A stretch of 64,000 nt of DNA from Linnemannia hyalina (taxonomy: Eukaryota; Mortierellomycota; Mortierellomycetes; Mortierellales; Mortierellaceae). The position numbers were made by a program, and so were the translations under genes. Shown one piece after another: positions 8,534 to 61,045 of the stretch. The stretch covers positions 3,363,501 through 3,427,500 of the forward strand of contig JAHRHY010000002.1 in NCBI GenBank assembly GCA_019671135.1. Reading direction: 5' to 3'. The notes under the pieces are model-generated. The model did no database searches, had not been told where the DNA came from, and worked only from the letters and a program-made list of their open reading frames with translations. Numbering within the stretch: the first letter of the stretch is position 1; each line of letters opens with the position of its first letter.

Positions 8534-10229
8534 CTCCTTACGAACGAACAAGTGCCTCCGGAATAAAGCGTTTCGTGGGAGTAAAGACATTGCCGATGAA
8601 TGCAACTTAGAGGGATATTGAATCGAAAGCCGTTGAAATGGCCCAAGACCCGCTCTTGTCCGTCCCCGGGAAGGCCGTGGAAGATGATGTCCACCAACTT
8701 CTGCCCCATTCCTTCCCGGTAAGAGGATTCTCACCATGCTGAGAAATAGCGTGCCGAGAATCTAGACTAGAACAAGGCAGAGTCGACCTTTTCTTAGGCA
8801 GGATCAGAGAGAGAGGTGGGGGAAGAGAACAAAGGGAATAGGGAGTCGGATATGGGTTTTTTCAAAGTATTATTCAAGTTACTAGGTAAAGATCAAACTA
8901 TTTGGGGTGCTACGGGATATATATATATATATGTGTGTTTGTGAGCAATGCTAATTAATTGTCTTGGGCTCAGTCAACTGCGCCCAAGGATCAACTGATC
9001 GTGCCAAAGGTCGACCGATCATGCCAAGAGTCGACTCATCATAGTGCGGTGAGGAATCCAACATAACGGTTTCTATCTATTAGTCTGAGGCTACAATAGA
9101 ACAAGAACTGAAACGCAGTGAGGGAGAGCTGAAGGATGTTCAGAAGCACTTACCGGCTGGAGAAAGGGGTGACAACTATCCTGAAGGACTAAAGGGACGG
9201 AAAGGGGTGCTGTCTACAGTGTTCTATTACTGATCTGAAGATAGAAAAAGTGGACGAAGGCCAAAGAAAGTGGGGGATCTCTATTAGCCAAATGGACCGC
9301 GAGCTAGGACTATATCCGTGAGGATGAACTGGGAGGGGACCAAGGAGACCTCATATATGAAGCCCTGGAGGGGTTGGAGTGCTGACAGTGAAGTAGAACC
9401 AGTGGTATTGGTGGTGTTGGTGGTGTAGGTGGTGCTACTTCATCCATCGAAAGGGTTGGCTATGTACCTCAGTTCGCCGTTAAACGCTAGATCGGCGAGT
9501 TCCAATGCTGGTGGGCGGATCAGAGACTGGCGAAATCGTGGGCAGGGCGAATAGTAGATCTCTATGAGATCAAGGGTGGCACAACAACGTCAAGAAGTCG
9601 ATGGATTAGGGTCGATCCATTATTGTGGTAGGGGATTGTTGGGAGGACTTTAGGCACAAGGTTAGGGTAGGGCCATCTGAGCGGTACCTGTCGAGGTGTG
9701 GTTAATATCCTGCGCAATCGAACAGAAACACAATGTTGATAGATCAAATAAAACGTAGAAAGAAGCAGAAGGAGCTCGAAAGCCTTTCATTATTTTTATA
9801 GTCCTAAATTGAATCAGACTACCCTTAAAGAAGCTAGACTAAACTACTGTTGCGAAATCTGGGGCTCGATACTGTTACTTAGGGGAGAGGATGGAAGGCC
9901 AGAGTTGTAGGACCGCTGTAAAGTCCTCAGTTGGTACGGGGGAGGGTTGTAGGTTGGAGGGGGGGGAAGTGATAATAGCGTCCTAAAAGAATCACACGAA
10001 ACGATACACTGCAGCGCGCCAGCGAAACTCTTGTCAATACTGCTCTCGTCCAAGAAGTGATGTTTAAAAGGACAAAGAGCAGACAAGAGGGCTCGGCGCA
10101 CTACTAATAAATGTCTACTAAAGAATATGACTGCTAACCTAAGGCATCGCCGCCACTGCCTAGCCACCACATCTTTTTGCAACAACACTACCAAAAATGT
10201 GTTGTTCCAAGCGATCCCCATCTACATCA
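8534..10229. other. Retroelement debris without intact genes
   Basis: No open frame has a recognisable domain. The stretch holds an AT dinucleotide run near 8919-8932, three tandem 20-base units at 8981-9040, and a GGTGGT-type microsatellite near 9410-9436. It sits between two pieces of a Ty3-type pol and is probably decayed element sequence, although the missing reverse-transcriptase and RNase H parts were not found. Confidence 0.4.
8981..9040. repeat. Three tandem degenerate 20-base units
   Basis: The units are CGCCCAAGGATCAACTGATC (8981-9000), GTGCCAAAGGTCGACCGATC (9001-9020) and ATGCCAAGAGTCGACTCATC (9021-9040). They share GCCAARG-TC-AC--ATC. Confidence 0.7.
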
Positions 10230-36581: not shown

Positions 36582-36679
36582 TCGATGTTACACAAACTCG
36601 CATAGCAATAAGAGCACGACTTGTCCCACTTGTACTATCGTCCATGTACACTTTGAATCCTGAGCAGTGAAACCATGGT

Positions 36680-37536
36680 CTACCTCCGTGCAAATATTGG
36701 TGGCAAATCTTTGAGGATTGGAGGGGGGTTTTTTTTACTTACTTTGTCTGGTGAGGAAGACAGGATCACACCCGCACTGTCATCGTCATCTTTGCTGTGC
36801 TTGACGTCTTGGCTGCCGTGGCCGTCATCACGGAACTCGCTTCCAAAGAGGTCGCGCAGCGCGTCCCTCTCGGCATGCAAGTCCCGGCGCTCCTTTTCGA
36901 CTTGGGCTTGGACCTGAGCAAGGAGGACGGCCCACTCGCACTCCTTGACAGCCTCCTTGGCGACGTACCTGTGGTAGGCTTGAGCGCCGAGTGTGGCCGT
37001 CCTCGTGGTCTTCCCAGTCTCCCCCTGGTCCCCGGTGCGAGTGCCGTGGACCTTGGCGGTGGCAGTGGCGGTGGCGGTGGCGTTGGCGGTGGCCTCGGCC
37101 TCGGCAGTGGCGTCGGTGTTGGCGTTGGCACCGGTGATAGCCTCAGTCCTGGACTTGGTATCAACACGGGACCAACGTACAACCTCCTTGCCCTTGGCAG
37201 CCTTCACGGCCCTCTTCTTCTTCCGCTTCCACGTTCCCAAGCCTTCCCCGTTGTTCTCTGAGGTGCGGTCATGCTTTTCAACAGCGCTGTTGTCAAACAC
37301 CGGGGCCTCATCGAACACCGTATCTGGAAGGGTCTTGGGACAGAAGCCACGACAAAGGAAGTCGTGGCTCACAAGCTCTTGGACAGAGATACGACGCCTA
37401 GCATTGATCTCCAGAGTGCAGCCCAGCAAGTCCTTGGCGTCTTCTGAGGGGGCCACACCGTCGAGGTAGTTGGCTGGGGGATAGACGACGACGAATCTAA
37501 TGTTTCAGGATCGGCAAAGTGGAAAATGGTTACTTC

Positions 37537-41713: not shown

Positions 41714-42120
41714 AAACCCATGGTCTACTTCCGTGCAGGTATTGGTGACAGATCTTTGAGGATTAGGGGTTTTTTATTTACTTTGTCTAAGGAAGAAGAC
41801 AGTACCACATCCGCACCGCCATTATCATCCTCGCTGCAGTTGTCAACTTGGCTGCCACGCCCGTCATCGCGGAACTCGCTTCCAAATACATCGTGCAGCG
41901 CGTCCCTCTCGGCATGCAAGTCCCGGCGCTTCTTTTCGACTTGGGCTTGGACCTGAGCAAGGAAGATGGCCCACTCGCGCTCTCTCACAGTCTCCTTGGC
42001 GACGTATCCGTGATAGGCTTGAGCACCGAACATCGCCGTTCCCGTAGTATTCCGAGTCTCTCCCTGGTCCATGGTGCGAGTGCTGTGGCCCTTGGTGGTG
42101 GCGTTGGCCTTCTTGAAGTT
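41714..42120 (-). pseudogene. Partial duplicate of the polo-like kinase 3' end
   Basis: About 400 bases repeat the end of the kinase gene at 36670-37065. The minus-strand translation matches block by block: GAQAYHGYVAKETVREREWA against GAQAYHRYVAKEAVKECEWA, and AQVQAQVEKKRRDLHAERDA against AQVQAQVEKERRDLHAERDA, then FGSEFRDDGRGSQ. The similarity continues past the stop codon (ACCATGGTCTAC on the plus strand near 36673 and 41719). Kinase domain, start and most of exon 5 are missing. Left of the matched block (minus-strand upstream) the sequence becomes unrelated near 42115. It is a truncated duplicate, not an independent gene. Confidence 0.85.
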
Positions 42121-42889: not shown

Positions 42890-43530
42890 CCAAGCTACGG
42901 ACTCTCATGATCGCCATCAGAGGATGTGAGTTCCCTGTCGAGCGAGGAGTCGTCTCGCCCTACTTTCTGCGCCTACTGCCGATCACTCTTTCCCAGGTTG
43001 AGTCACACCACTTTTCCCGACTGGAAGACATGTACCGGCAAATTGGCAATTTGGTAAGTCTACAGCATCTGGATCTCATCATGGTACCTCTCAAAGCAAG
43101 CGCTCAAGTATATGATAGAAACCTAAGCAACGGACAGGTAATGTCGTTGCCCGCCATGCTGAGCGTCAGAGACACTTATAACGACCGCCCATGATTCCTT
43201 CGTAATTTTCTGAGTTAAAGAAGCTAGAAACCTTCGGGGTTCGTACAGCGTAAAGACATATGAGTCCGAGAAGATGACAGAGTGACCAAAGGTGGTTAAG
43301 ATGACCCAAAATTGGCCATTGCTCTGTTACTTTGAATTCTTGTTTGAGGAGGATGTGATCTCTCAGCAGTTTGAATGGCTTCGGGGGGAAACGAAAGAAT
43401 GGTCGGCCTTTGCTGAATATTGTAGCAGGATACGATCCTTCAATAGAGAGGGATTCAGAAGGAGACGATGGAATTCTGAGAATCAAACAGAAAATAATAA
43501 CTGTCCTTTATCCCTTCGTCCGTCATTAGT
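42890..43530 (+). pseudogene. Leucine-rich (F-box/LRR-type) protein remnant
   Basis: The plus strand reads LEDMYRQIGNLVSLQHLDLI followed by MVPLKASAQVYDRNL, then after stops and a frame change RNLRGSYSVKTYESEKMTE and further on LFEEDVISQQFEWLRGETKE. These pieces follow the order of leucine-rich-repeat proteins of the F-box type that are expanded in Mortierella-like fungi. Stop codons interrupt the frame near 43193 and 43214 and after MTE near 43283. No start, F-box or intact repeat array is present, so this is a decayed fragment. Confidence 0.6.
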
Positions 43531-43576
43531 CATTGACAGACTAGGATAAATAAACTATAGTTTCAATCTATAGAGG

Positions 43577-46500
43577 TTATGAGCTTTGCGGCGACGGTCT
43601 TGCAAGGGAAGGGGGGCATCCGAGATGCTTAAGGTAATGCTTGCCGATGATAGCAATGTTGTGCGCACCCACCAAGTCTCGGTGAATCCACCGCCTGCAT
43701 TTCACACACGCACAGGTTCTCATCGAGGGCTTAGCAAGTCTTGTCGTCTCACCCTTGGAAACGCAGGTTGGGCACATTGTAGATGTAAGATATTCATCCA
43801 CTAACGCTACCTTGTACCCAAGGGCCATGCTCTATCAATTTTAAAAAGGACAAATGAATTAATATACTTGTGTATCCAGATCGCCATGGTATTGAAGGGA
43901 CATACGATACTAGTAGATACGACCACCCGTACATCGTCTTTCTACTCTCTCCTTTCTCATTATTACCTTCTGCTGTAGTCTGCGCAAGAACGTCGTGTGG
44001 ACCGATGTAAGGTTGAACCCTGTCCGAAAAGTCGCGTTTCCCAACGCGAAGAGGACCCTACGCCCTCCCATTGGGTTACTCTTCAATGCTTCTTTCACAA
44101 GTCGGAGCACGCCTGCCACCGCCATGTCCATCTCTGACAACTTTGCCATTCTATGTTGGTATACGGCCTTCTTCCAGTCCGACGATGAGTAGAATCCATG
44201 AATGATCGGTTCCAACTCGAAATACTGCCGTTGCGCGGATTTGAGGGCGTCCTCTGAGTCGTATTTTGTTGAATGGAGCGCATTCTCAAGATCATGCATC
44301 GAAGGTAGAAAAGTTGCCCTGTTCTTGTCATCCGTCTTCCTCGTCCAAAGGCTCGCGTCGACATTATCTGCGGGACCGGCTGCTGGGTGTTGTCGCCTCC
44401 ATTCCTGTTCCCATGCTCTGAAGGCGAGTGTTGGCTGATACAGTGATGCGCGCTTTACCAACAAGTTGACCACAGTTTTGTCATCGAGACGCACACAGAA
44501 CGCACCGCTCACGACTTCGCCTGGATCGATGCCAATCACCGCCACCGACTCCAAGTCTTGACCGAATGCTTCAATTATCGACTGTCGGGTTGGGTACTGG
44601 TTCTCGATACGTCGTAGAAACTCCTTACGACCCGGCGCCTGCCGACTCTTGGTGAGGTCATAGGCCAAAAGTTGCAGCTGATGGCCGTCCGTGCGGATGA
44701 AATTGTTCAATGCATACCGAAAGGAAGACTGTGCGCCTTGGATGTGAGGAGGGGTCGGCAATAGTGGGGGGTTGGAAGGCGGCGGCACTGCAGATGCTGA
44801 AGACGATGACGACGATCCGGCCGAGATGGATGCATTGTGTCGGGTTCGGTAATAGTTAATTCGATCTGTCAGGTGTCGTGCAAGTGGTCCTTGGTCATAG
44901 ATGGTGGGGTGGGCAGCCTTGAGTTCACTCATTGTAGCACTTCGTTTCCCGTATGTTGTTTGTTGTTTGTTTGCGAGCCGAACCGTATTTCGATCTCCAA
45001 TGAAAAGCATCTTGATGAGGTTCCCGAATGACGTATTGACTTGTAGGTTGGCCCAGTCGTGGCTATGAGGGCTGCCGCTCCAAATCAATCCGACTTGACC
45101 TGCATCTCTTCCCCAAAGGATACGCATCAGTCCCTCCTCCCTAATGTCGATAAAGCTGTCTGCCATCTTGGACTGGGTACAGAAACGTGGTCGGTTTGCC
45201 GCTGGAAGTGCCATGAGATAGTTCCAGCATGATCGGATGTGTCCAGGCTGATAGACAATTTTTTTCGACTTTTTCCTGGGGTTCTCATCATCGGCATCAT
45301 CGTCTAGAATAGTACCGTCATCGTCTAGAGTAGTGCCGTCATCACCAGGTTTGTCTTCATCCTCCTGTTCGACTTTTGGAAGTAGGGCGGGATCGAACTC
45401 CAGCTTCTCCATCTATTTTATTGCAAAAAGAAAAAAAGGCACAGTATTAGAATATGCAATACACTCTCTCCAATTATCAATGGCGCTTCATCAACGAATT
45501 GGGCGATTAGTACCTTTGTGCGTATAGTCTGTGGGAGCTTCTTGTAATGCAACTTCATAGCCAAACAGATCTTGGGCGCCAGATCATCGATGACAACACC
45601 GAGGGGTATGCTGGATGGGTTAACAGCCTTGAATCCCGGATGGAACCCCTTGAAGGCCGCAAAAATCGACACTGCCTCCGCCTGTGCTTCCTTCGACTTT
45701 GGCTTGTTGGCTGTAGGTCCTAGTGCTTTTGTCGAATCTCGGAGAACAAACGACAACAGATTCCCAATAACAATCTCTGCCCAGTCTGAATCCAGAATAT
45801 CCTCCAGAAAGGACGTCGGCGGCGAACTAGAGAGTAGCTCTCCAAGGATCCGCATTTCGAGCATCTTGTAGACAAAATGCTTGGCAGTATTGACGATAGA
45901 CACAGCCATATCAAGTCTCTGAGCAACCATGTCGACGTTCGCCGGGGTGAGATCGGTAGCTCGTTTCAGGCACCCCTTGACTGATCCAGTGGTAAGTGTG
46001 ACAGTGGCGAAAACAGACTTGAATGACTTCTTCAGAGCAGCATAACCAGGCCTGTCCTGGTGATAGTCAAGATGCTTCTTCTTCTTCTTTTTCTTGGCTA
46101 CAGGGGCAGTGGCAGCTTGTTCGTTGGTGGTAGCGGGATCCTTTGGCTTGTATGGTCGAGGGGTTGATGGTTTCAGACCAGACAATTCTACGTCCTCGAC
46201 GGGGCTGGCGTTCTCAAGGTTGACCGTTTGGGGTACGTATCGATCTGCTTGATCCGTCCGGGATCGGAATCTAGAAATAAACGCGCCAATGTTATGAAGA
46301 ATAATATTAGTACAGAAGCAATAGAAGTCAATACAAGTGGCTGGATATAACTGAAGATGACGCTAAAAAGTACTTACTTTGTCCTCTGCCATTTCTGCCT
46401 TCTCCTTGACCGGGCGCGTGAGCCATGGCGCATTTCTTGTTTTCTACTCTTTTTGTAGAGTGGAGGTGCCTGGTCGATAATAGGTGTGGGCGCTGATGGT

Positions 46501-48069
46501 CCTGTATGTGATGTTTGGCTCCTTGAGAAACGCTCCCAGTTGGTCTTCGCCTTTTTCATCTCAACTTCCTGAATGATAGTCGTGACAAGGCTGTGGATAT
46601 CGGGTGTGCTGGAAGTCGTTTCGGTCCCACCCATAGGTAAAGGATGCTCGGTGCACATCACGAACGCCTGAAGGGCATGATCGAACTGGCTGTCTTTTAC
46701 GTTCTTCTGGTACTGAGTTATCCCGACCCTGTTCAAGGACCTTTTAGCGTGTTTCTTATACAGTTGCATGTGTTTCCCATATTGGAGGTAGGACTCCTCT
46801 GCGATCTCCTGGAGCTTGTGGGCGCTGTCGTATACAATCTTCAAGTACTGAATGACGTGGTGTTTGAATTGTCCAAGTCGCTCCTGGTCGCTCAATCCGT
46901 CGAGTCCGTCCAATGTAAACGTCCGAACAATGTCAGCGTTCGACACCAAGCCATAGTAAGGAACGCCGTCGGTATAGTCGTTTGTTGTTAAAATACCAAG
47001 AAGAAGAAGGTGGGCTGGAGTGGGGAGCTGGTGTCGATCCATAAGGTCCTGCTTCTGGAATGTTTTCCACTGACTGCCGACAGGAATAGTGATCGATGTA
47101 GAGGCCTCATAGACCAACAGGTCAGAGTCTTTGGTGATGATTCGTACATCCTCCGGCTTGACGGCATTATTGAGACAACGGGCAATACAGCAGTCGGCTT
47201 GGTGGGGGCAGCGACATATTGTCCACCCCAGATTCTGAAGAGCATCCAGCACTTGTCTCGCGGCATCGGGTGGTGCCCGATAAACAGACTTTAGACGCCG
47301 GTATAGCCGTTTCGTCCCTTTGATCTTGTCTTCGTCGTAGTCCTCCATGAGTTTTCTCATCCGCGTTGTTAGATCACGGTCCCGTTTCTGATGGGCGTGC
47401 TCTTTCTCGACCGAACGGGGACCGTCGGCATGGATTGTTGTGCGCCCCTGTGAGACTTTTTTCATGAGGATGTCGTGAATAACCTGGCCTATGTGGCCAT
47501 AGTCCTATTGAAAACACAAAGCGATGAGATAGTATTAGGTATATTTCTTACAGCAGCTTTGTCTTTGCCGGTTGTATTTGAAAATCGAATGTACTTACAA
47601 TGCCTTTGTTTTCGGTACGTGTTGTTGTGAGAGTACCATTGCTGTCGAGAAAGATCTGAGCTGGTCCTCCTTGCAGTAGATGTTGGACCTGTGTCATAAG
47701 GTTTGTCGGAACCGAGCCAGGAGGGATCGCAACAAACGCAGGACCGGTCGATGTACTTGTGCCTGAGGGAGCTCCCAATGTGAGGCGAGCATGTTTGATG
47801 GATGGACTCCCCGACTCGGTCCCCTCAGACCCAGATGGCGAATGTGGATGTTTTTGTTCGCCTGGTACGTTGGTAGCGACAGTTGTTTTTAGTGAGTAGT
47901 GCAGTCGGGCCTGCCTGGCTTCGATGCTGACGGTTCCGTAAAATGCACGCGAGTTCAACAGGGCGAAAAACATCGCCGGAAAGTCCACATGGCATGTTTT
48001 TTGGGTGAGATCTTCCTCGGTTCCGTCGGAGGCCTCCTTGATCCATGAAGGAAGGACACTGATTCCCAT
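43577..48069 (-). CDS. XPG/FEN1-like nuclease joined to a TnpB/Fanzor-like RuvC nuclease, five exons
   Basis: Exons 48069-47599, 47504-46378, 46270-45514, 45412-43967 and 43831-43577 join in phase to 1351 residues. The N-terminal half is XPG-like: MGISVLPSWIKEA, Asp29 in HVDFPAMFFALL, Asp184 in HADGPRS, an XPG-I block (CPHQADCCIA, Asp261), Asp283/Asp285 in TKDSDLLVY and Asp333 in TTNDYTDGVPYYG. A Lys-rich helical middle (exon 3) follows. The C-terminal half (from residue 786) has a RuvC-I block (VIGIDPGEVVSG, Asp1081), helices ending HGFYSSSDWKK, a block VLFALGNATFRTG, then LVDEYLTSTMCPTC, CACVKC and RRWIHRDLVGAHNIAIIG (Asp1319). This is the layout of IS605 OrfB/TnpB and eukaryotic Fanzor. 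The protein may cut DNA under RNA guidance and process flaps, but that is inference. All joins are phase-consistent; an alternative is two adjacent genes, the second starting at Met 45412. Confidence 0.78.
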
Positions 48070-49329
48070 TCTTGAACTATGTTAAGAAAAGTGTGAGAGC
48101 TAGTGTGAGTCTTCTTGCTTGATAAGTTGTGAAAGGGTATAATGAGTACGGTTCGCAATCACATCCAGCATCGGCCTTACAGAATGGCTGTTGTGGGTTG
48201 CTTCGAAAGGGTGTGGCGAAGATATATGTAAAGTAGTATGTAGGTGGATGTGGAGGAATAGGTGGATGTGGAGGAGAGTGTGAGATGTGAGGTGTGCTGA
48301 GGAGAGTGTGGTTAGAGAGGAAGAAAGAAAGAGGGAAGAAGGAAAATGGAAGCGGGATTTTATAGGAAAAGTGGGCAGTGGAAAGGACAAAGGCTTACAT
48401 GTCGAGACCACTATCACTCAACACACACAAGCGATATAATCTATACCATTCAGGAACAAATCGCCAAAACAAAAGCCCAAAAATAACCTGACATTTCCAC
48501 GATAACTTGCTTCATGCATACCGTGGATCCATATCATACAGCAAGAAACCGTTTCCACAATAACCTGCTTCATGCATACCGTGGATGATGGTCACCATCA
48601 CAAACACCTTTTGTCTCTTTCATATCTCTTTCATGTCTCTTTCATGTCTCTTTTTGGTTCTCTCATTGTCCCTTTCTTTTTTCCTTTCGCCTCTCTCTCT
48701 CTCCCTCTTTGTTTCCATATCATACAGCAAGAAACCATTTCCACAATAACCTGCTTCATGCATACCGTGGATGATGGTCACCATCACAAACACCTTTTGT
48801 TCTCTCATTGTCCCTTTCTTTTTTCCTTTTGCCTCTCTCTCTCTCTCTTTGTTTCCACACCATGCAGCATGAAGTCACCAAAACAATAACCCAAGAGTTT
48901 ATTGTGGAAATGGCAGGGCTATGGTTTTGCTTCAAAAAAAACAAAAAAAAAGGCCTGTTTTATTCGTACCTTGGGTGATGGTCAACATCGCAAACCATAT
49001 TCTCGTTTTGCCTCTCTCATTGTATCTCTGCTTCTCTTGTTGGCCCTTTGAGCCCCTATTATCTCTCGCCCATATACAAAAGTACACACAGTAAACAAAT
49101 AACGAACCTTAAGTCAACCACACATTTGCACACTCATCACTCTACACTCTCCTGGAACAATAGCGTCAACCATATCCGCCTTTATCAAGCTGACTGAACT
49201 CGTCACGACGCCAATCTAGGCCAAGTCTGCAACGTCCGCAAATTTCTTTGAGCTCGAAACACTCCCCAACATCAACATCCACCATCAAGATGTCACCATC
49301 ATTAACCAGATTGTGCTGCTCAAACGTGA
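48070..49329. other. 5' flank of the XPG-Fanzor gene with tandem repeats
   Basis: The first 350 bases are purine-rich on the plus strand and probably hold the promoter. Repeats occupy 48494-48870. AT-rich sequence follows to about 49150. No separate gene is supported. Confidence 0.5.
48494..48870. repeat. Tandem/direct repeats with 58- and 186-base spacing
   Basis: The block TTTCCACAATAACCTGCTTC, with ATGCATACCGTGGAT after it, occurs at 48494, 48552 and 48738. The second and third copies share a longer unit that also includes GATGGTCACCATCACAAACA and the CT-rich stretch TCTCATTGTCCCTTTC. ATATCATACAGCAAGAAACC precedes copies two and three. A degenerate end of the unit (CACCATGCAGCATGAAGTCA) follows near 48858. 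Confidence 0.85.
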
Positions 49330-49738
49330 TGGGCGCACTGAGCGGGCGTATTCTGCCCGCCCTAGTCATTACTAACCATCCTTCGTCCCGCGACGCCAAG
49401 TATGCAACCTCTATCCGAACCCAAGGAGCGCGCCTAGAAACTATCGCAGACCTCGAGGACACTTATGGTCGTCGAGCTTGCGAGAGCAATCTTTGCTTCG
49501 TAAGTATATCTGAGAAAGTGTCGAATTCTGTTGGATGGGCTACGAATTCGTACTCACCTACCGTTCACCTCTGCTTTCGGCAATTCTTTGCATCTTTTGC
49601 AGGACCAAGAAAAAGCCTGAGAGGATATTGCTCTACCTCAACAGAGTCTCGGAGGGTCAGTTTGTGCAAGCCCACCAAGTCGAAGTGGATGCCATTCGGT
49701 CGGCTTCCAAGAAGCTACAAGTTATGTATGCTCCCAAG

Positions 49739-50145
49739 TGCCACTTTTGCCCCAAGGCTGCCAGGCCCCAGGTTGTCCAGGTTATGCGAAAATAGGCTTT
49801 GTCCTAGTTCCGTTGAACGCGCCATGGATTTCTGATATCGTCACGTGACTTTCGCCAGCTGACCATTCAAGATCCCAAACCCCAAGCCCCGTCTAATGTC
49901 CTAAGCCTCGGTCCAACATCCAAGCCCCGTCCAATGTCCAAGCGCCGCCTTGGTTCCTTCTGTTCATTCGGCCCTTAGCATAAATAAACCCCTTGTTCCC
50001 CTGTCTTGTTCCCCAGTCTGCAATAACTCACTTACATCTGTCCCCTGCCTTACTTCTGCACACTCTTCTTATTCCTTCCTTTTCCTTCATAATAAAATAT
50101 AACAAAAGCAATACACATTCTTCCAAGTCCTGTCTGACCATTGCA
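49739..50145. mobile_element. Solo LTR inserted in the Argonaute pseudogene
   Basis: The 407-base insert starts TGCCACTTTT, ends GACCATTGCA (TG...CA) and is flanked on both sides by CCAAG (49734-49738 and 50146-50150), a 5-base target duplication. Removing it with one CCAAG restores the Argonaute reading MYAPK-ITSVVVQKRHH without a gap. Inside are degenerate tandem 20-base units (about 49879-49945), a TATA-like ATAAATAAA near 49981 and AATAAAAT near 50091 as a possible polyadenylation signal. No internal element is left, so the copy arose by LTR-LTR recombination. Confidence 0.88.
49879..49945. repeat. Degenerate 20-base tandem units inside the solo LTR
   Basis: Units of the type CCAAGCCCCGTCTAATGTCC repeat three to four times with changes. 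Such repeats are common in the U3 part of LTRs. Confidence 0.6.
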
Positions 50146-50600
50146 CCAAGATCACGTCTGTCGTAGTCCAGAAGCGCCATCACAATCTCTTCTTTCTAAT
50201 GCAGAAGGGCCAGGCCGATCGATCGGGAAACTGTCCACCCGGAACTGTGGTCTACACTGGCATTGTTCATCCATTCCAATTTGATTTTACTTCCAGTAGC
50301 AAGCGGGTCTGACTGGAACTTCGAGACCTGCCCTCCACAACGTTCTCTGCGATGGGAGCTGATTTACATCGGACGGTCTCCAGACTCTAACCTACAGACT
50401 ATGCTACCTGTATGCTCGATGCACTCGATCCGTCTCTATGGTTTCTGCGGAGTACTATGCCCACCTGGTCGCGCAGCGAGCACGTTTCCACCAAGGGCGT
50501 GAATTGGAGCAAGGCCACGCCTTCGGAAGGATTGGGTGAGTCGATTACCTACGCGCCCGTAAAGCAGCAGCTTCAGAAGGGTATGTTATATACGAACCGT

Positions 50601-51125
50601 GCTAAGACGTTGAAGAGATATCTACATGGCAGAAAGCTGACCTTTTCGTATTGCTTTGCTTTTTCTGGTGATGTGGTTTATGTGAGCCCGGCCCTTCAGC
50701 CATTTGCTACCCTTGCTTGTCTGCAACCGCACTCGTGCGACCTCCCTTCCCCATCGCCCACAATACCGATTGGCTTGTTTTGAACTACATTTCGATAAAA
50801 AATAATGCAAGTTAACGATGGGTGTCCGTGAACGTTGGCTGGTTGTGACCACCGCGTCCGTGTATTGATTTTTATTTTTTTGCTTTATGAGGAAGTGAAA
50901 GAATTATAAGATGCTTGTGGAGACAAAGAGCTTTTCAAAAGGCTAAAACCAAAAAAAAAGAATGACTGTCCACAGTGTTTTAAGCGTTGGCGAGTTCAAG
51001 AAAAAAAGAAAAAAAAAAGACGCTCTCTATTCCTCAAGGGGTTGTTGAGATCAATCAGTCCTTATCATAAGCGAGGCCTGGTTCCACTGTTTAGTGCGAT
51101 GGTCCCTCGTGATTGTTCGACTCTA
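50601..51125. other. Intergenic
   Basis: The flank of the Argonaute remnant and the 3' region of the minus-strand membrane-protein gene. A-rich stretches occur near 50950-51020. No gene was seen. Confidence 0.45.
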
Positions 51126-51805
51126 TTAGCCGTTGGCTCGTCGACAGCCCTTATTAGCCCTCTGCTTGGCCTCCCGGATCTGTCGCTTAGCCTTGCGCAA
51201 GTCACCATGTCCCCAGATCATACTTAGGACTGCACAGGAAAGGAGGTACCCGACATAGGCGACCATGCTGACCAACCCGACGCCGCAGGCAACCAGCAGC
51301 GAGACTCCCAAAGCTGGGAGCAGGAAAATCAAGCTGAAAATTGCGAATCCTACCTAAACAGAGATAAGGTGATGATTGGCACATGCAGATGATAATGGGT
51401 TAGGGTAGGGAGTTTCGGATCAGTTTCGTCTATCAGGCTTTGGTATTCGAGTGCGTATTATCATTGTCATTGTGCCAAAGAAACATATCTCACTTCAACA
51501 ATGGTAAATCCAATCCCTCCAACGACCAAGGACCCAAGGGTGACAAACCCCATGAAGCCCATGAAGCAGCCCAAAGGAAAAGCCGACATGGCTCCAAACC
51601 CAACGACCCCAATCTTGACACTGGTGGGAGCTTGGACATATAGATTCTTGAGGTATCCCGCGGGAGGGAAAACATAGTGCTGGACTATACCCATCTGGTT
51701 GACAGACTCCAGTGCCGATTGAGCTTTGCTGGCGACGATCTGGGGGGTTTCATGGGTGGCGTCTCGGGCTTGGTCGACTTGTCGCTCGATGTTCGTTGTG
51801 GCCAT
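51126..51805 (-). CDS. Promethin/LDAF1-like small membrane protein, two exons
   Basis: Exon 1 (51805-51494) and exon 2 (51353-51126) join in phase 0 to 179 residues. A soluble N-terminus (MATTNIERQVDQARDATHET) is followed by two long hydrophobic hairpins: VKIGVVGFGAMSAFPLGCFM and GFVTLGSLVVGGIGFTIVE, then across the splice FAIFSLIFLLPALGVSLLVA and GVGLVSMVAYVGYLL. The C-terminus is basic and coiled (RKAKRQIREAKQRA). This size and hairpin layout, with Gly/Leu-rich segments and a central Pro, resemble the promethin (TMEM159/LDAF1) family, which works with seipin in lipid-droplet formation at the ER. The match is from pattern only; a generic four-helix membrane protein remains possible. Confidence 0.65.
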
Positions 51806-52185
51806 GGTGGGTGTTGGTGGTAACTTGCGATGGTTTTGCTGGGGTGGCAGTGACTGGAGGAGAAGGATGTGTGGGGTGAGGCTAAAGCAGCGGGATTGCG
51901 TTGAAGAGACAGACTCGGGTGGTGATACTGGTGCGTGAAGGGATGTGGATAGAAATAGTCAAAATGGAGGCGATCGTTGACCGTGTTGCAGTTGAAGGGG
52001 TGGAAAGAGCAGAAAGTGGGAAGAGGAAGTGAACATGAGAGCTGAGAAAATTATGGTTACCTACGATATCCAAGTATTACTTGCATTGAGGGAAAGTGAT
52101 GAGAGATCGGAGCATTTCTAAAAATCAAGTGCGATAGAGGCAATAGATGCGTCGTGTTGAGACATTACGCGTTGATTTGTTATCT
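51806..52185. other. Promoter region of the promethin-like gene
   Basis: G-rich leader on the plus strand near 51810-51950. No gene was seen. Confidence 0.5.
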
Positions 52186-52717
52186 TTAGAGCACGATAAA
52201 GAGAAAGGCAAGATAGAATCTTGAGGGCGGAGAGGCAATAAGGAGATCACGAGGACTCTCGTCGAACCTAATCTGGGATGGCTGTGTCGCCAGCAATCGC
52301 TGTATGTCTTCAACGAGAGTCGACGAGCCGGAGCTGGAGGGGTCGGAGGCGTTTGTTAGAGGAAGCAGTGTCGGCGATGTCCTCATCCTCGACGTCAACT
52401 GCTCGTTTTGGACTGCATGAAGCCTGCTGTGTAGATGTTGTTGTGTGAGTAGACATGCCCGCGTCATCGTCGTCGGTTGCTCGCTCTGGGCCGGATGAAG
52501 TCTGCTGTGTCGATGTTGTTGCGTGGTTAGACATATGACGTCGGGCCGACTTTGCAACGAACTGCGCCGTTTCATGGAAACTCAGCGCGTTCACCAACGC
52601 AAAAAACATCGATGATAAGTTGACTTCGCATCTCTTGGTCTGATCTTTCTTCACTCCGTCTGTCGCCTTGATCCAGCGCTCTTCTTTTTTTCCTTTCTGT
52701 CTTGGAGTCAATTTCAT
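52186..52717 (-). pseudogene. Decayed relative of the first exon of the XPG-Fanzor gene
   Basis: The minus-strand frame starting at 52717 reads RWIKATDGVKKDQTKRCEVN followed by LSSMFFALVNALSFHETAQF. It aligns with SWIKEASDGTEEDLTQKTCH and VDFPAMFFALLNSRAFYGTV of the gene at 43577-48069. In another frame near 52310-52210, TLVEDIQRLLATQPSQIRFD matches the exon-1 end LMTQVQHLLQGGPAQIFLDS. The MGI start is changed, the catalytic Asp position reads Asn (EVNLSS), and a frameshift separates the halves. The middle carries an internal duplication (HATTSTQQTSSGPERA and HTTTSTQQASCSPKRA). Nothing like exons 2-5 lies to the left, so it is a truncated relic. Confidence 0.72.
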
Positions 52718-53210
52718 TTATGGAGGTTGATTCAAACTCTCTTATTTTGAGTGAGAGGCGTCTGAATTGTCAGAGGGTTTTGACAACATTATCTTTTATA
52801 AAGGCTCGGCTCTGAGACTATTTTATCCACACTTATTGTTCTGCCTGTCCATCTCGCTGACGTTTAAAAGTGAAGGAAAAGTGATAGGAAGATAAGTTGA
52901 TATGGAAGTTCCTCTCGTGGTGGTTCCTCTTTTTTTATGTGACGGAGTGGGTGCTCTCTGTGTTTTTTTTTGTAAATATGGAGAGGACCCTGCTCGCAGA
53001 ATCAATCGAAGGGATAAATTTCGACCACAAAAAGCGGTCGAAAACAGACGAAGGGATAACTTCCAGCTTGATAACTTTTGGAGTATGTTTTATTAGAGAG
53101 TTATTCGTAATTGTAATGAAGGGATGGGAGTTTTTTTTGTGAGGCTATGAGTATTTTACAATATGTTCTTGTTGGTTTTAGGGGACTTTTTTTGTGCGTT
53201 TTTGTGGGTA
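52718..53210. other. Intergenic
   Basis: T-rich sequence between the XPG relic and the end of the next minus-strand gene. No gene was seen. Confidence 0.45.
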
Positions 53211-57861: not shown

Positions 57862-60800
57862 ATGGCCACTGTTGTCATTGCCCAGAAGGCTTCCACGCTG
57901 GCCTATGGTAATAACAGCAACACAGGAACTCTCTATCACACACACGGAGATCTAACACCAGCAAGCTTACCTTTCTGGCTTCGTCACTGACATGCGGCTT
58001 CAACAAAGGAGGGACGATTGCTCAAAAGACACACTGACCCAGTTCATTCACTTTTGCGTGTGTGTCTTGTTGAATAGCGCCCATCGTCCTCGCCCATGCC
58101 TTGAACAACCCCGCCGTCGTCAAGGTCGAGTACAAGAACGTTCCCACCCTCGCCGAGCACAACAACGCCACCGTCGCATTGACTGCCAACGGGTATGTGC
58201 TTTAGGAATGAGACTGGCTGATCAGCGCACTGGTCTACTTTGACTCGTGAGAACAAACCAGTGCATAGCGAACAGAATCCCAACGCGCCAATATGCTGAC
58301 AACGTGCTCCTTGTGTTTGTCGTAAATAGAACTACTTTGACCTCTGTCAGCGCTATCCTCAGATACATCGTCCGCTCCCACAAGAACACCCTCTACGGAT
58401 CTGATCCCGCCTCCACCAGCGTCGTAGGTGACTCTTCTCGCTCGGTGTACAACAGAGGCGACAGGCAAAGGAAAAAAACCGCCATATACAGCCATCAGGA
58501 GTTCAGCCCCCACTGACCCTACCTCGTTATTATGTTATTTTGTAGATGGACGACTTTATTGACAAGAGCCAGGATATCGTCAACAGCTCAGACTTCAAGA
58601 CCTTGGACGTCATCTTCCAGCAGTTGAACCACCACTTGACCCTTCGCAGCTACTTTGTCGGCCACAAGCCCTCGGTTGCCGATATCGCTATTTGGGGTGC
58701 CCTCAAGGCCAACGCCATTTTCGCCCGCCAGATCAAGACCGGAAAGGACCTTGGTACCTACCTCGGCCGCTGGTTCAACCACATGTCTGCCCAGGCTTTC
58801 GTCGAGGCTGCCCTCGTTGAGGTCGCCAAGGCCAACGACAGTGCCAAAGTCGTACGTTTTGTTTTCTCATCCTACAGGAATTGTTGAGTATCCGCACTGG
58901 ACTTCCTACTTCCTTGACTGCCAATTAACACGGATACTTCTTTTCATGTAAATGAACATAGGCTAAGGCTGATCAGGGATCGTTTGATATCAACTTGATT
59001 GACGCCGAGATGGGCAAGGTTGTGACCCGTTTCCCCCCAGAGCCCTCAGGCTACCTTCACATTGGTCACGCCAAGGCTGCCCTGTTGAACAAGTACTTTG
59101 CCGACCAGTACAATGGTCGTCTTATTATCCGTTTCGACGACACCAACCCCAGCAAGGAGAAGGAGGAGTACGAGCACTCGATCAAGGAGGACTTGTTGAA
59201 GATTGGCATCGACTCTTCGGTCGTGTCGTATACCTCGGACTTTTTTGATACCATCTACAATTATGCCCTTCAGCTGATCAAGGAGGGTAAGGCCTACTGT
59301 GATACCACCGGCCAGGAGCAGATGCGTGCCGAACGCATGGACGGTATTGCCTCCCAGTGCCGTGACTTGTCGGTTGAGGAGAACTTGCGTCGTTTTGAGG
59401 AGATGAAGAACGCTACCGAGTTTGGACAGACTTGCTGTCTTCGTGCCAAGATCTCGGTCGATAACCTGAACAAGGCTCTCCGTGATCCCGTCATCTACCG
59501 CTGCAATCTCATCCCCCACGCCCGCACTGGGTAATTTCACTTTTGCTTGTGTACGTTGTTTGCATATTTACTAGCTTTTGATTTTGCATGATCATTAACG
59601 CTTGTTATTATTTTGTTCCCCAATTGCGATGTAATAGCACCCAGTGGAAGATGTACCCCTTGTACGATCTTGCCTGCCCCGTCGTCGACTCCCTCGAGGG
59701 CGTCACCCATGCCCTCCGCACGGACGAGTACCACGATCGCAACCCCCAGTACCAGTGGTTCCTCGACAACCTCGGACTTCGCCAGGTCCACATCTGGGAG
59801 TACTCTCGTCTCTCCTTCGTCTACACCCTCATGTCGAAGCGTAAGCTCACCTGGTTCGTTGACCAGGGCCGTGTCTCTGGATGGGATGACCCTCGCTTCC
59901 CTACCATCCGTGGTATCCTCCGTCGTGGTCTGACCATGGAGGCGCTTAAGGCTTATATCCTCATGCAGGGTGCCTCAACCAACTATATTACCTTGGAGTG
60001 GGATAAGCTTTGGGCTGTTAACCGCAAGCAGATCGACCCTATTGCTCCCCGTCACACTGCTGTCGATGCTGCCAACAAGGTCAAGGTCAATGTTGCCGGC
60101 GCTGAGGCTTATACCCTCAAGGAGGTGCCCCGTCATAAGAAGAATGAGGCCCTCGGAAACAAGCAGACTGCTTATGGACCCACTATCTGGATGGACCAGG
60201 CTGATTGCAAGGAGCTCGAGGTCAACGAGGAGGTTACTTTGATGGACTGGGGTAACGCTTTCATCCGGTCGATCGAGAAGAACTCAGAGGGAGTTGTCAC
60301 GTCCGTCAACGCCGAGTTGCACTTGGAGGGAGACTTCAAGAAGACCAAGAAGAAGTTGACCTGGTTGGCCGACGGTGCTGAGCTTGTCAAGGTCGACTTG
60401 ATGGATTACGACTACCTCATCACCAAGAAGAAGGTCGAGGAGGAGGACGAGCTCAAGGATCTCTTGACGCCCACGACAGAGTTCAAGACTGAGGCTATTG
60501 CTGATGGAAATGTTGCCGAGTTAAACAAGGGTGATATCATACAGTTTGAGCGCAAGGGATACTACATTGTTGACGCCGTCGCTACCCCTACCACCGTTGC
60601 ACGCTTGATCTTGATCCCTGATGGCAAGGTTGCCTCAATCTCGTCCAAGGCTGCCCCCGTTGCCCAGGCTGAGGTCAGGGACGCCAAGGATGCCAAGAAG
60701 AAGGAGCAGGCGCTTGCCGCCAAGGATGCCCCCGCCGCCAAGAACGGCGCTCCTGCCGTCTCTGGAAAGAAGGCCAAGGCCGCCGCCCACGCCGCTGCCC

Positions 60801-61045
60801 AGAAGGCCGCCCCTGCCTGGACCGGCCCCGGTCCCAAGCCCGAGGAGATTGTTGAGCTCGAGGCCCAGATCGATGCTGCTGGTTTGAAGGTCCGTCAGTT
60901 GAAGACCGACAAGGCTGATGCCGATGCTGTGAAGGTTGCAGTTGATGAGCTTCTGGAGCTCAAGAAGCAGTTGCCTGTTCGGATTGAGGCCCTCCAGGCC
61001 TTGGCTGCTGCTGCCTCTGCTGCCGCTGATAACTTCAGCCTGTAA
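57862..61045 (+). CDS. GUS1: Cytosolic glutamyl-tRNA synthetase, six exons
   Basis: Exons 57862-57907, 58078-58192, 58330-58423, 58546-58851, 58962-59530 and 59638-61045 join in phase to 845 residues. The first four exons encode a GST-like domain (PIVLAHALNNPAVVKVEY; YFVGHKPSVADIAIWGALKA), used in other eukaryotes to join synthetase complexes. The catalytic core has RFPPEPSGYLHIGHAKAALL with the HIGH motif, IIRFDDTNPSKE, YPLYDLACPVVDSLEGVTHA, and the KMSKS counterpart LMSKRKL. The anticodon-binding beta domain follows (YGPTIWMDQADCKELEVNEE onward). The last 85 residues are an Ala/Lys-rich linker and a WHEP-type helical hairpin (AAGLKVRQLKTDKADADAVK with VAVDELLELKKQL), a tRNA-binding add-on better known from animal synthetases and absent from yeast Gus1. 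The enzyme charges tRNA-Glu in the cytosol. Confidence 0.95.

Follow-up and report, generated by a model that had tools for sequence, protein, structure and literature searches.

A gene on the minus strand of the Linnemannia hyalina genome, at positions 43577-48069 of the 64,000-nucleotide stretch of DNA analysed here (the window), raises the question of whether a nuclease of the XPG/Rad2 superfamily and a Fanzor nuclease are really encoded in it as one protein and, if so, what such a protein could do for the element that carries it.

Structure and conservation of the spliced gene

Splicing of the five minus-strand exons was recomputed and yielded 4056 nt and 1351 residues without any internal stop. 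The four introns are all of the GT-AG type and their phases are 0, 2, 0, 0, in agreement with the first-pass annotation, which had claimed five exons with these phases in a single 1351-residue frame. The parts of the gene are as follows:

47599..48069, minus strand: exon 1, residues 1-157, XPG N-region with the MGI start and the acidic D29
46378..47504, minus strand: exon 2, XPG I-region (D184, Q259, D261, D283, D285, D333) and start of the linker
45514..46270, minus strand: exon 3, basic linker and then the Fanzor N-terminal part from about residue 612 (about 46035)
43967..45412, minus strand: exon 4, Fanzor REC/WED region, TDG motif (1026-1028) and RuvC-I DPG (D1081)
43577..43831, minus strand: exon 5, Ealt E1280, C4 zinc finger, RuvC-III D1319 and stop
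46656..48069, minus strand: XPG/Rad2 nuclease module, residues 1-440, spanning the intron 47505-47598
43577..46035, minus strand: Fanzor1 module, residues about 612-1351, spanning two introns

Since the Fanzor module already starts inside exon 3, the intron 45413-45513 is not the border between the two halves, as had been claimed at first pass, and the proposal that transcripts starting at Met 45412 would disprove the fusion was therefore directed at the wrong border. The gene model deposited for L. hyalina (P0001) has a later start and reads into the last intron, with the loss of exon 5.

All five coding exons are free of stops and indels in 9 of the 11 other copies found of the gene, the two broken copies being those on contig C22. 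The changes pooled among the ten intact copies lean towards synonymous (26 nonsynonymous and 22 synonymous, ratio 0.38, P = 0.00085). When the parts of the protein were considered separately in these ten copies, the nonsynonymous/synonymous ratio was 0.20 for the Fanzor part and 1.09 for the linker; for the XPG part alone it was 0.50, the synonymous excess being non-significant (P = 0.12). The intact copies, the synonymous lean and a homologue in Entomortierella parvispora (predicted protein P0003, aligned over 100% of the query with 52% identity) indicate that the frame is beyond chance. The five-exon fused frame is thus confirmed as real.

The Fanzor module

The profile search proposed at first pass for the C-terminal half gave a match to PF07282 (C4 zinc finger followed by RD) with 41.5 bits over a cut-off of 26.3 (E = 1.5e-10). 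The Fanzor1 fingerprint, which includes DPG in RuvC-I according to the portion covered of PMC10711439, was looked for residue by residue. DPG is present as GIDPG (1079-1083) and the TDG motif of WED as RTDG (1025-1028); six residues lie between the Ealt glutamate E1280 and the zinc-finger C1287, and the RuvC triad D1081, E1280, D1319 is complete. The GIDPG, the zinc-finger cysteines and the RD that the first-pass annotation had read in this half are all there. In a structure comparison, the SpuFz entries ranked at the top and the region alignable to SpuFz began at the residue of protein P0004 equivalent to about 612, the predicted Fanzor model itself being poor (pLDDT 45).

The module shares with the Fanzor1 proteins SpuFz1, GtFz1 and PpFz1 the DPG, the TDG, the glutamate six residues before the C4 finger and the RD, and also its location in an element with inverted ends. 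The difference is one of composition: the window protein has 1351 residues and includes XPG, versus the 600-700 aa of most Fz1 in the part covered of PMC11423790, where the extra domain described is the FRI insertion of PpFz1.

The XPG/Rad2 module

Concerning the N-terminal half, the positions of interest in the window protein are D29, D184, Q259, D261, D283, D285 and D333, which we take to match D34, D86, E158, E160, D179, D181 and D233 of FEN1 (FEN1 numbering). The order of the acidic motifs given at first pass is correct, but the seven acidic metal ligands are not complete in the window family, as Q259 and D261 occupy the positions of E158 and E160: one of the seven is a Gln, and another is Asp instead of Glu. 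Judged by these residues, the XPG active site of the window family is non-canonical. The same Gln and Asp are common to the window family (F1) and to two related families, F2 and F3, considered below, and the Gln recurs in proteins P0008, P0011, P0012, P0013 and P0014. In three gene models (P0003 and P0006, E. parvispora; P0010, Podila) the stretch around the motif is wholly or mostly absent. Other families of the genome, and protein P0035 of Dissophora globulifera, keep Glu at the E158 position (SEAD, TEAD, GEAD); in the sister families of the genome this Glu goes with Asp at the E160 position. It seems reasonable to interpret that the module may be weak or inactive in F1, F2 and F3, because of the Gln and the Asp, while the XPG-Fanzor fusion as a class looks catalytic, because the other positions are acidic and the sister families and P0035 keep those motifs.

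The domain call does not depend on these residues only. The N and I regions are present and collinear: a profile of nine members (A5) matched RAD2 (E = 6.7e-14) and also XPG, FEN1 and EXO1, and the window protein alone scored below cut-off or non-significantly. The window XPG exon matched the XPG queries of sister families (E = 6.2e-28 and 9.1e-11), and the module has the XPG/FEN1 fold. The profile matches and the fold bear out the assignment made at first pass. The collinear regions and the fold are shared with the XPG/Rad2 superfamily (EXO1, FEN1, Rad2, XPG), and there is a spacer between the N and I regions, as in XPG; the differences are that the window module is fused to Fanzor, is transposon-encoded and has Gln at one acidic position. 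The flap trimming suggested at first pass is a putative activity.

Recurrence of the fusion

In the L. hyalina genome (51.5 Mb in 50 contigs), 91 places matched PF07282, the Fanzor zinc finger, 90 of them over cut-off. An XPG match was found on the same strand within 7 kb upstream at 62 of the 91, as compared with 4 places with XPG downstream and 2 with XPG on the opposite strand, used as controls; these counts, for which 95 XPG rows were used, are lower bounds, and many of the places are copies of few families. The spacing from XPG to Fanzor was 3.0-3.4 kb in 57 of the 62 pairs, and the other 29 Fanzor places had no XPG match nearby. At C23:1074294, a single intronless open frame of 1398 codons covers the motifs of XPG, the linker, the N-terminal part of Fanzor and the DPG of RuvC-I, with the zinc finger just downstream and outside the frame, so the fusion is not reliant on splice inference alone.

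Related proteins, 14 in number, several of them partial or without some parts, were found in Linnemannia, Entomortierella, Dissophora and Podila (four genera, all of the Mortierellaceae). P0035, too, has both XPG and Fanzor parts, with 23% identity over the aligned part. Proteins of Mortierella and Haplosporangium were seen for the Fanzor part only; one of Mortierella sp. (P0022, 618 aa) begins within that part and is either a truncated model or a stand-alone Fanzor. The joined architecture, for which a search had been recommended at first pass, thus recurs in other loci and in other species of the family.

The element that carries the gene

The gene lies in a repeated element with inverted ends, with the following features:

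43509..53058, minus strand: whole repeated element, family F1, 9550 bp, gene orientation 53058 to 43509
53047..53058, minus strand: left terminal inverted repeat TATCCCTTCGTC, 12 bp
52256..52717, minus strand: first exon, in relic form, of another XPG-Fanzor gene, similar to those of F2, close to the left end
51126..51805, minus strand: promethin-like cargo gene, 179 aa, two exons by eye (51805-51494, 51353-51126)
49194..49835, plus strand: Argonaute (Piwi-domain) gene fragment, on the strand opposite to the nuclease gene, found in other copies too
43509..43576, minus strand: 3' non-coding tail, candidate end of the omega/reRNA scaffold, with two hairpins predicted; the tail ends at the right terminus
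43509..43520, minus strand: right terminal inverted repeat GACGAAGGGATA, 12 bp

The two terminal repeats are identical over their 12 bp. Copies of the window gene cease matching at 43509, on the right; on the left, where three copies were followed far enough, the match extends to 53059-53061 in two of them and ends at 51079 in the third. At least 12 F1 copies, including that of the window, were seen. Both ends are present in six copies of 9532-9817 bp, the C18 copy having three mismatches in the left end, and also in a shortened copy of 7261 bp on C22. This contig (277,857 bases; L018, L029, L030, L051, L052) carries two F1 copies that are broken and have diverged by 2.0 and 2.6%, as well as an F3 copy. 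A subterminal palindrome, TTTCGACC...GGTCGAAA, was observed by eye just inside the left end (window 53058), and short direct repeats upstream of the gene, at 48494-48818, vary in number between element copies.

As to the cargo, the stretch 52256-52675 of the relic exon is 88.8-89.0% identical to three F2 copies, and the presence of this relic near the left end suggests an F2-like element as the material from which that of F1 was rebuilt. The cargo gene matched Pfam Promethin with E = 4.2e-4 and 20.5 bits, below the cut-off of 27; promethin-like matches occur at nine places with 87-97% identity, on C14 with 73-76% and, more distantly, on C1 (38%). Within the Argonaute fragment, 49514-49795 matched Pfam Piwi (E = 9e-8, 32.2 bits, cut-off 28.9) and argonaute-2 chains (E = 1e-5). 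On C14 a host-like pair is found, at 73319-73990 (plus) and 74838-74953 (minus), about 0.85 kb apart, with 76% identity for the promethin-like match and 78% for the Argonaute-fragment match. Because this pair has the same tail-to-tail order as in the element, the promethin-like gene and the Argonaute fragment probably come from a single host stretch captured whole. It is a speculation that the captured piece could give rise to RNA directed at the Argonaute of the host itself.

Elsewhere in the window, outside the element, an 83% direct repeat (36670-37063 and 41714-42102) and, by eye, a glutamyl-tRNA synthetase-like host gene (58962-61045) were observed.

Related elements and the piggyBac-type transposase

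Family F2 encodes proteins that share with the window protein 58-59% identity in the stretch of exon 4 and 42% in that of exon 2; its ends are TTATCCCC.../...TTAAGGGATA, and it encodes a transposase of the PF13843 type, which looks decayed by eye. In F3, whose ends are TATCCCTTCAACCG/CGGTCGAAGGGATA, four copies hold transposase frames 591-616 codons long. Considering all the piggyBac-type loci, 28 of 37 are followed on the same strand by an XPG match within 7 kb, none has such a match upstream and 2 have it on the opposite strand. The window element is different: a 242-aa piece of the F2 transposase, used as a query, gave 55 rows, none of which falls inside this element, and Pfam scans named no transposase in its other frames. 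The role in element mobility suggested at first pass fits with a gene located in a multicopy element with inverted ends, whose relatives add a piggyBac-type transposase. The likeness to piggyBac is in the PF13843-type transposase of F2 and F3; the differences are the ends TATCCC/GGGATA, the lack of a transposase in the window element and the flanks, since none of those read of F1, F2 and F3 has TTAA at both sides.

Other observations on these elements were a subterminal palindrome, TGTGGTGCAAATTTGCACCACA, seen by eye just inside the left ends of F2 (L041-L043), a short repeat at 9873-10187 of the window that is also found beside or inside other elements (L036, L041), and an interrupted right end in the F2 copy of L036.

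Flanking bases and the right-end RNA candidate

In the left flanks, T is found at -1 in 9/9 distinct F1 and 11/11 distinct F2 flanks, and C at -3 in 9/11 distinct F2; in F3, position -1 is not constant (G in three, A in two and T in two, n = 7). In the right flanks, A at +1 occurs in 4/11 F1 and 2/7 F2, and those of F2 have G at +3 in 1/7 and A at +2 in 5/7. The comparison of T at left -1 with the mirror base on the right (6/18) gave P = 7e-6, and that of C at left -3 of F2 (1/7) gave P = 0.013, both uncorrected. The left flanks show a one-sided constraint, as for a TAM, though the constant T at -1 may instead be an element base. SpuFz1 elements have a conserved CA adjoining the left repeat and the TAM CATA, according to the portion covered of PMC10432273, and from that layout the predicted 5' TAMs are TTA for the window family and CNTTA for F2.

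The two-hairpin layout of the right end is common to F1 and F2, but the evidence from the hairpins is weak because 8 and 24 of 200 shuffles, respectively, fold as well. The right-end RNA candidate had no match in Rfam.

Interpretation

The fused frame with its ten intact copies, the two domain assignments, the repetition and conservation of the architecture and its location in a mobile element support, as a whole, the domain-fusion interpretation made at first pass. The reading that we favour, with a probability of about one half, is that of a bifunctional transposon protein, XPG-Fanzor1, which would combine guided cutting with 5'-end processing in favour of copy-back. In this reading, an XPG/EXO1/FEN1-type module is joined via the basic linker to a Fanzor1 RNA-guided endonuclease, in carrier elements TATCCC...GGGATA related to those encoding a piggyBac-type transposase. 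The right-end RNA, with its scaffold at about 43509-43600 and flanking DNA as guide, would direct Fanzor to the emptied donor site adjoining the 5' TAM; there, the RuvC would make a double-strand break, the XPG module would process the 5' ends by resection or flap removal, and repair, rather than joining the ends, would restore the element by copying it from the sister or homologue. Both the guided donor-site cutting and the 5'-end processing are roles proposed from sequence.

The most serious competitor, unlikely though worth weighing, is that the XPG module does not cut but binds DNA structures (flaps, junctions, R-loops) and positions Fanzor as the sole cutter. The Gln and Asp at the E158 and E160 positions of F1, F2 and F3 agree with it, and so does the fact that the XPG part is less constrained than the Fanzor part; on the other hand, the window family retains acidic residues at the remaining positions, and SEAD, TEAD or GEAD is kept in sister families and in P0035. 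It is rather improbable that XPG serves the transposase, by trimming piggyBac-type excision or integration intermediates, with Fanzor, in the same polypeptide, acting separately in retention. The 28 of 37 piggyBac-type loci lying upstream of a same-strand XPG match would be in favour, but a piggyBac-type neighbour exists for no more than 28 of the 82 XPG loci, and the window family has none. Moreover, the fusion links XPG to Fanzor and not to the transposase, and piggyBac excision, being seamless, needs no flap trimming.

An artefactual joining of two adjacent genes by the splice inference is very improbable. An in-frame Met does open exon 4, and some gene models hold one half only (P0022; short XPG pieces), but the single frame at C23:1074294, the joined proteins of other species and the Fanzor sequence already in exon 3 all argue against two genes.

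Comparison with known systems and significance

The first-pass remark that it knew of no described XPG-Fanzor fusion agrees with the literature searched, in which no paper joining Fanzor and XPG was found. Such a fusion is not described in the portions covered of PMC10432273, PMC10711439, PMC11423790 and PMC3627910. In the same literature, Fanzor and FEN1 were mentioned together as terms unrelated to each other, and TnpB and XPG in a Cas12a paper. The Fanzor1-bearing DNA transposons of Bao and Jurka (2013) likewise have Fanzor beside a transposase, and inverted repeats; within the part covered of that paper (PMC3627910), there are cases with IS4-type transposases and one family flanked by TA, in contrast with the XPG fusion and the PF13843 (piggyBac-type) transposase partner found here. 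With the cut-and-copy of IS200/IS605 TnpB, the system would share the proposed logic of a guided break followed by homologous copying, since a TnpB-guided break at the sister chromosome permits copying of the element by homologous recombination (PMC10432273, part covered); it differs in being eukaryotic and in adding its own 5'-nuclease-type module.

What Fanzor cutting does biologically was described as unknown in 2023 (PMC10432273, same part). The retention, in several families, of a natural fusion with a nuclease of the break-processing type strongly hints that this role involves the repair of the cut, and the fusion makes such a role directly testable. Editors in which repair is biased in favour of homologous copying could also be modelled on the XPG-Fanzor fusion. 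A more far-reaching version of the preferred reading, tentative and somewhat less probable than it, is that of a self-contained cut-and-resect machine, in which the EXO1/FEN1-like domain would resect the guided break and so force homologous copying. If true, evolution would here have solved the problem that end joining poses to guided nucleases, and such a machine would be the prevailing form of Fanzor in the L. hyalina genome.
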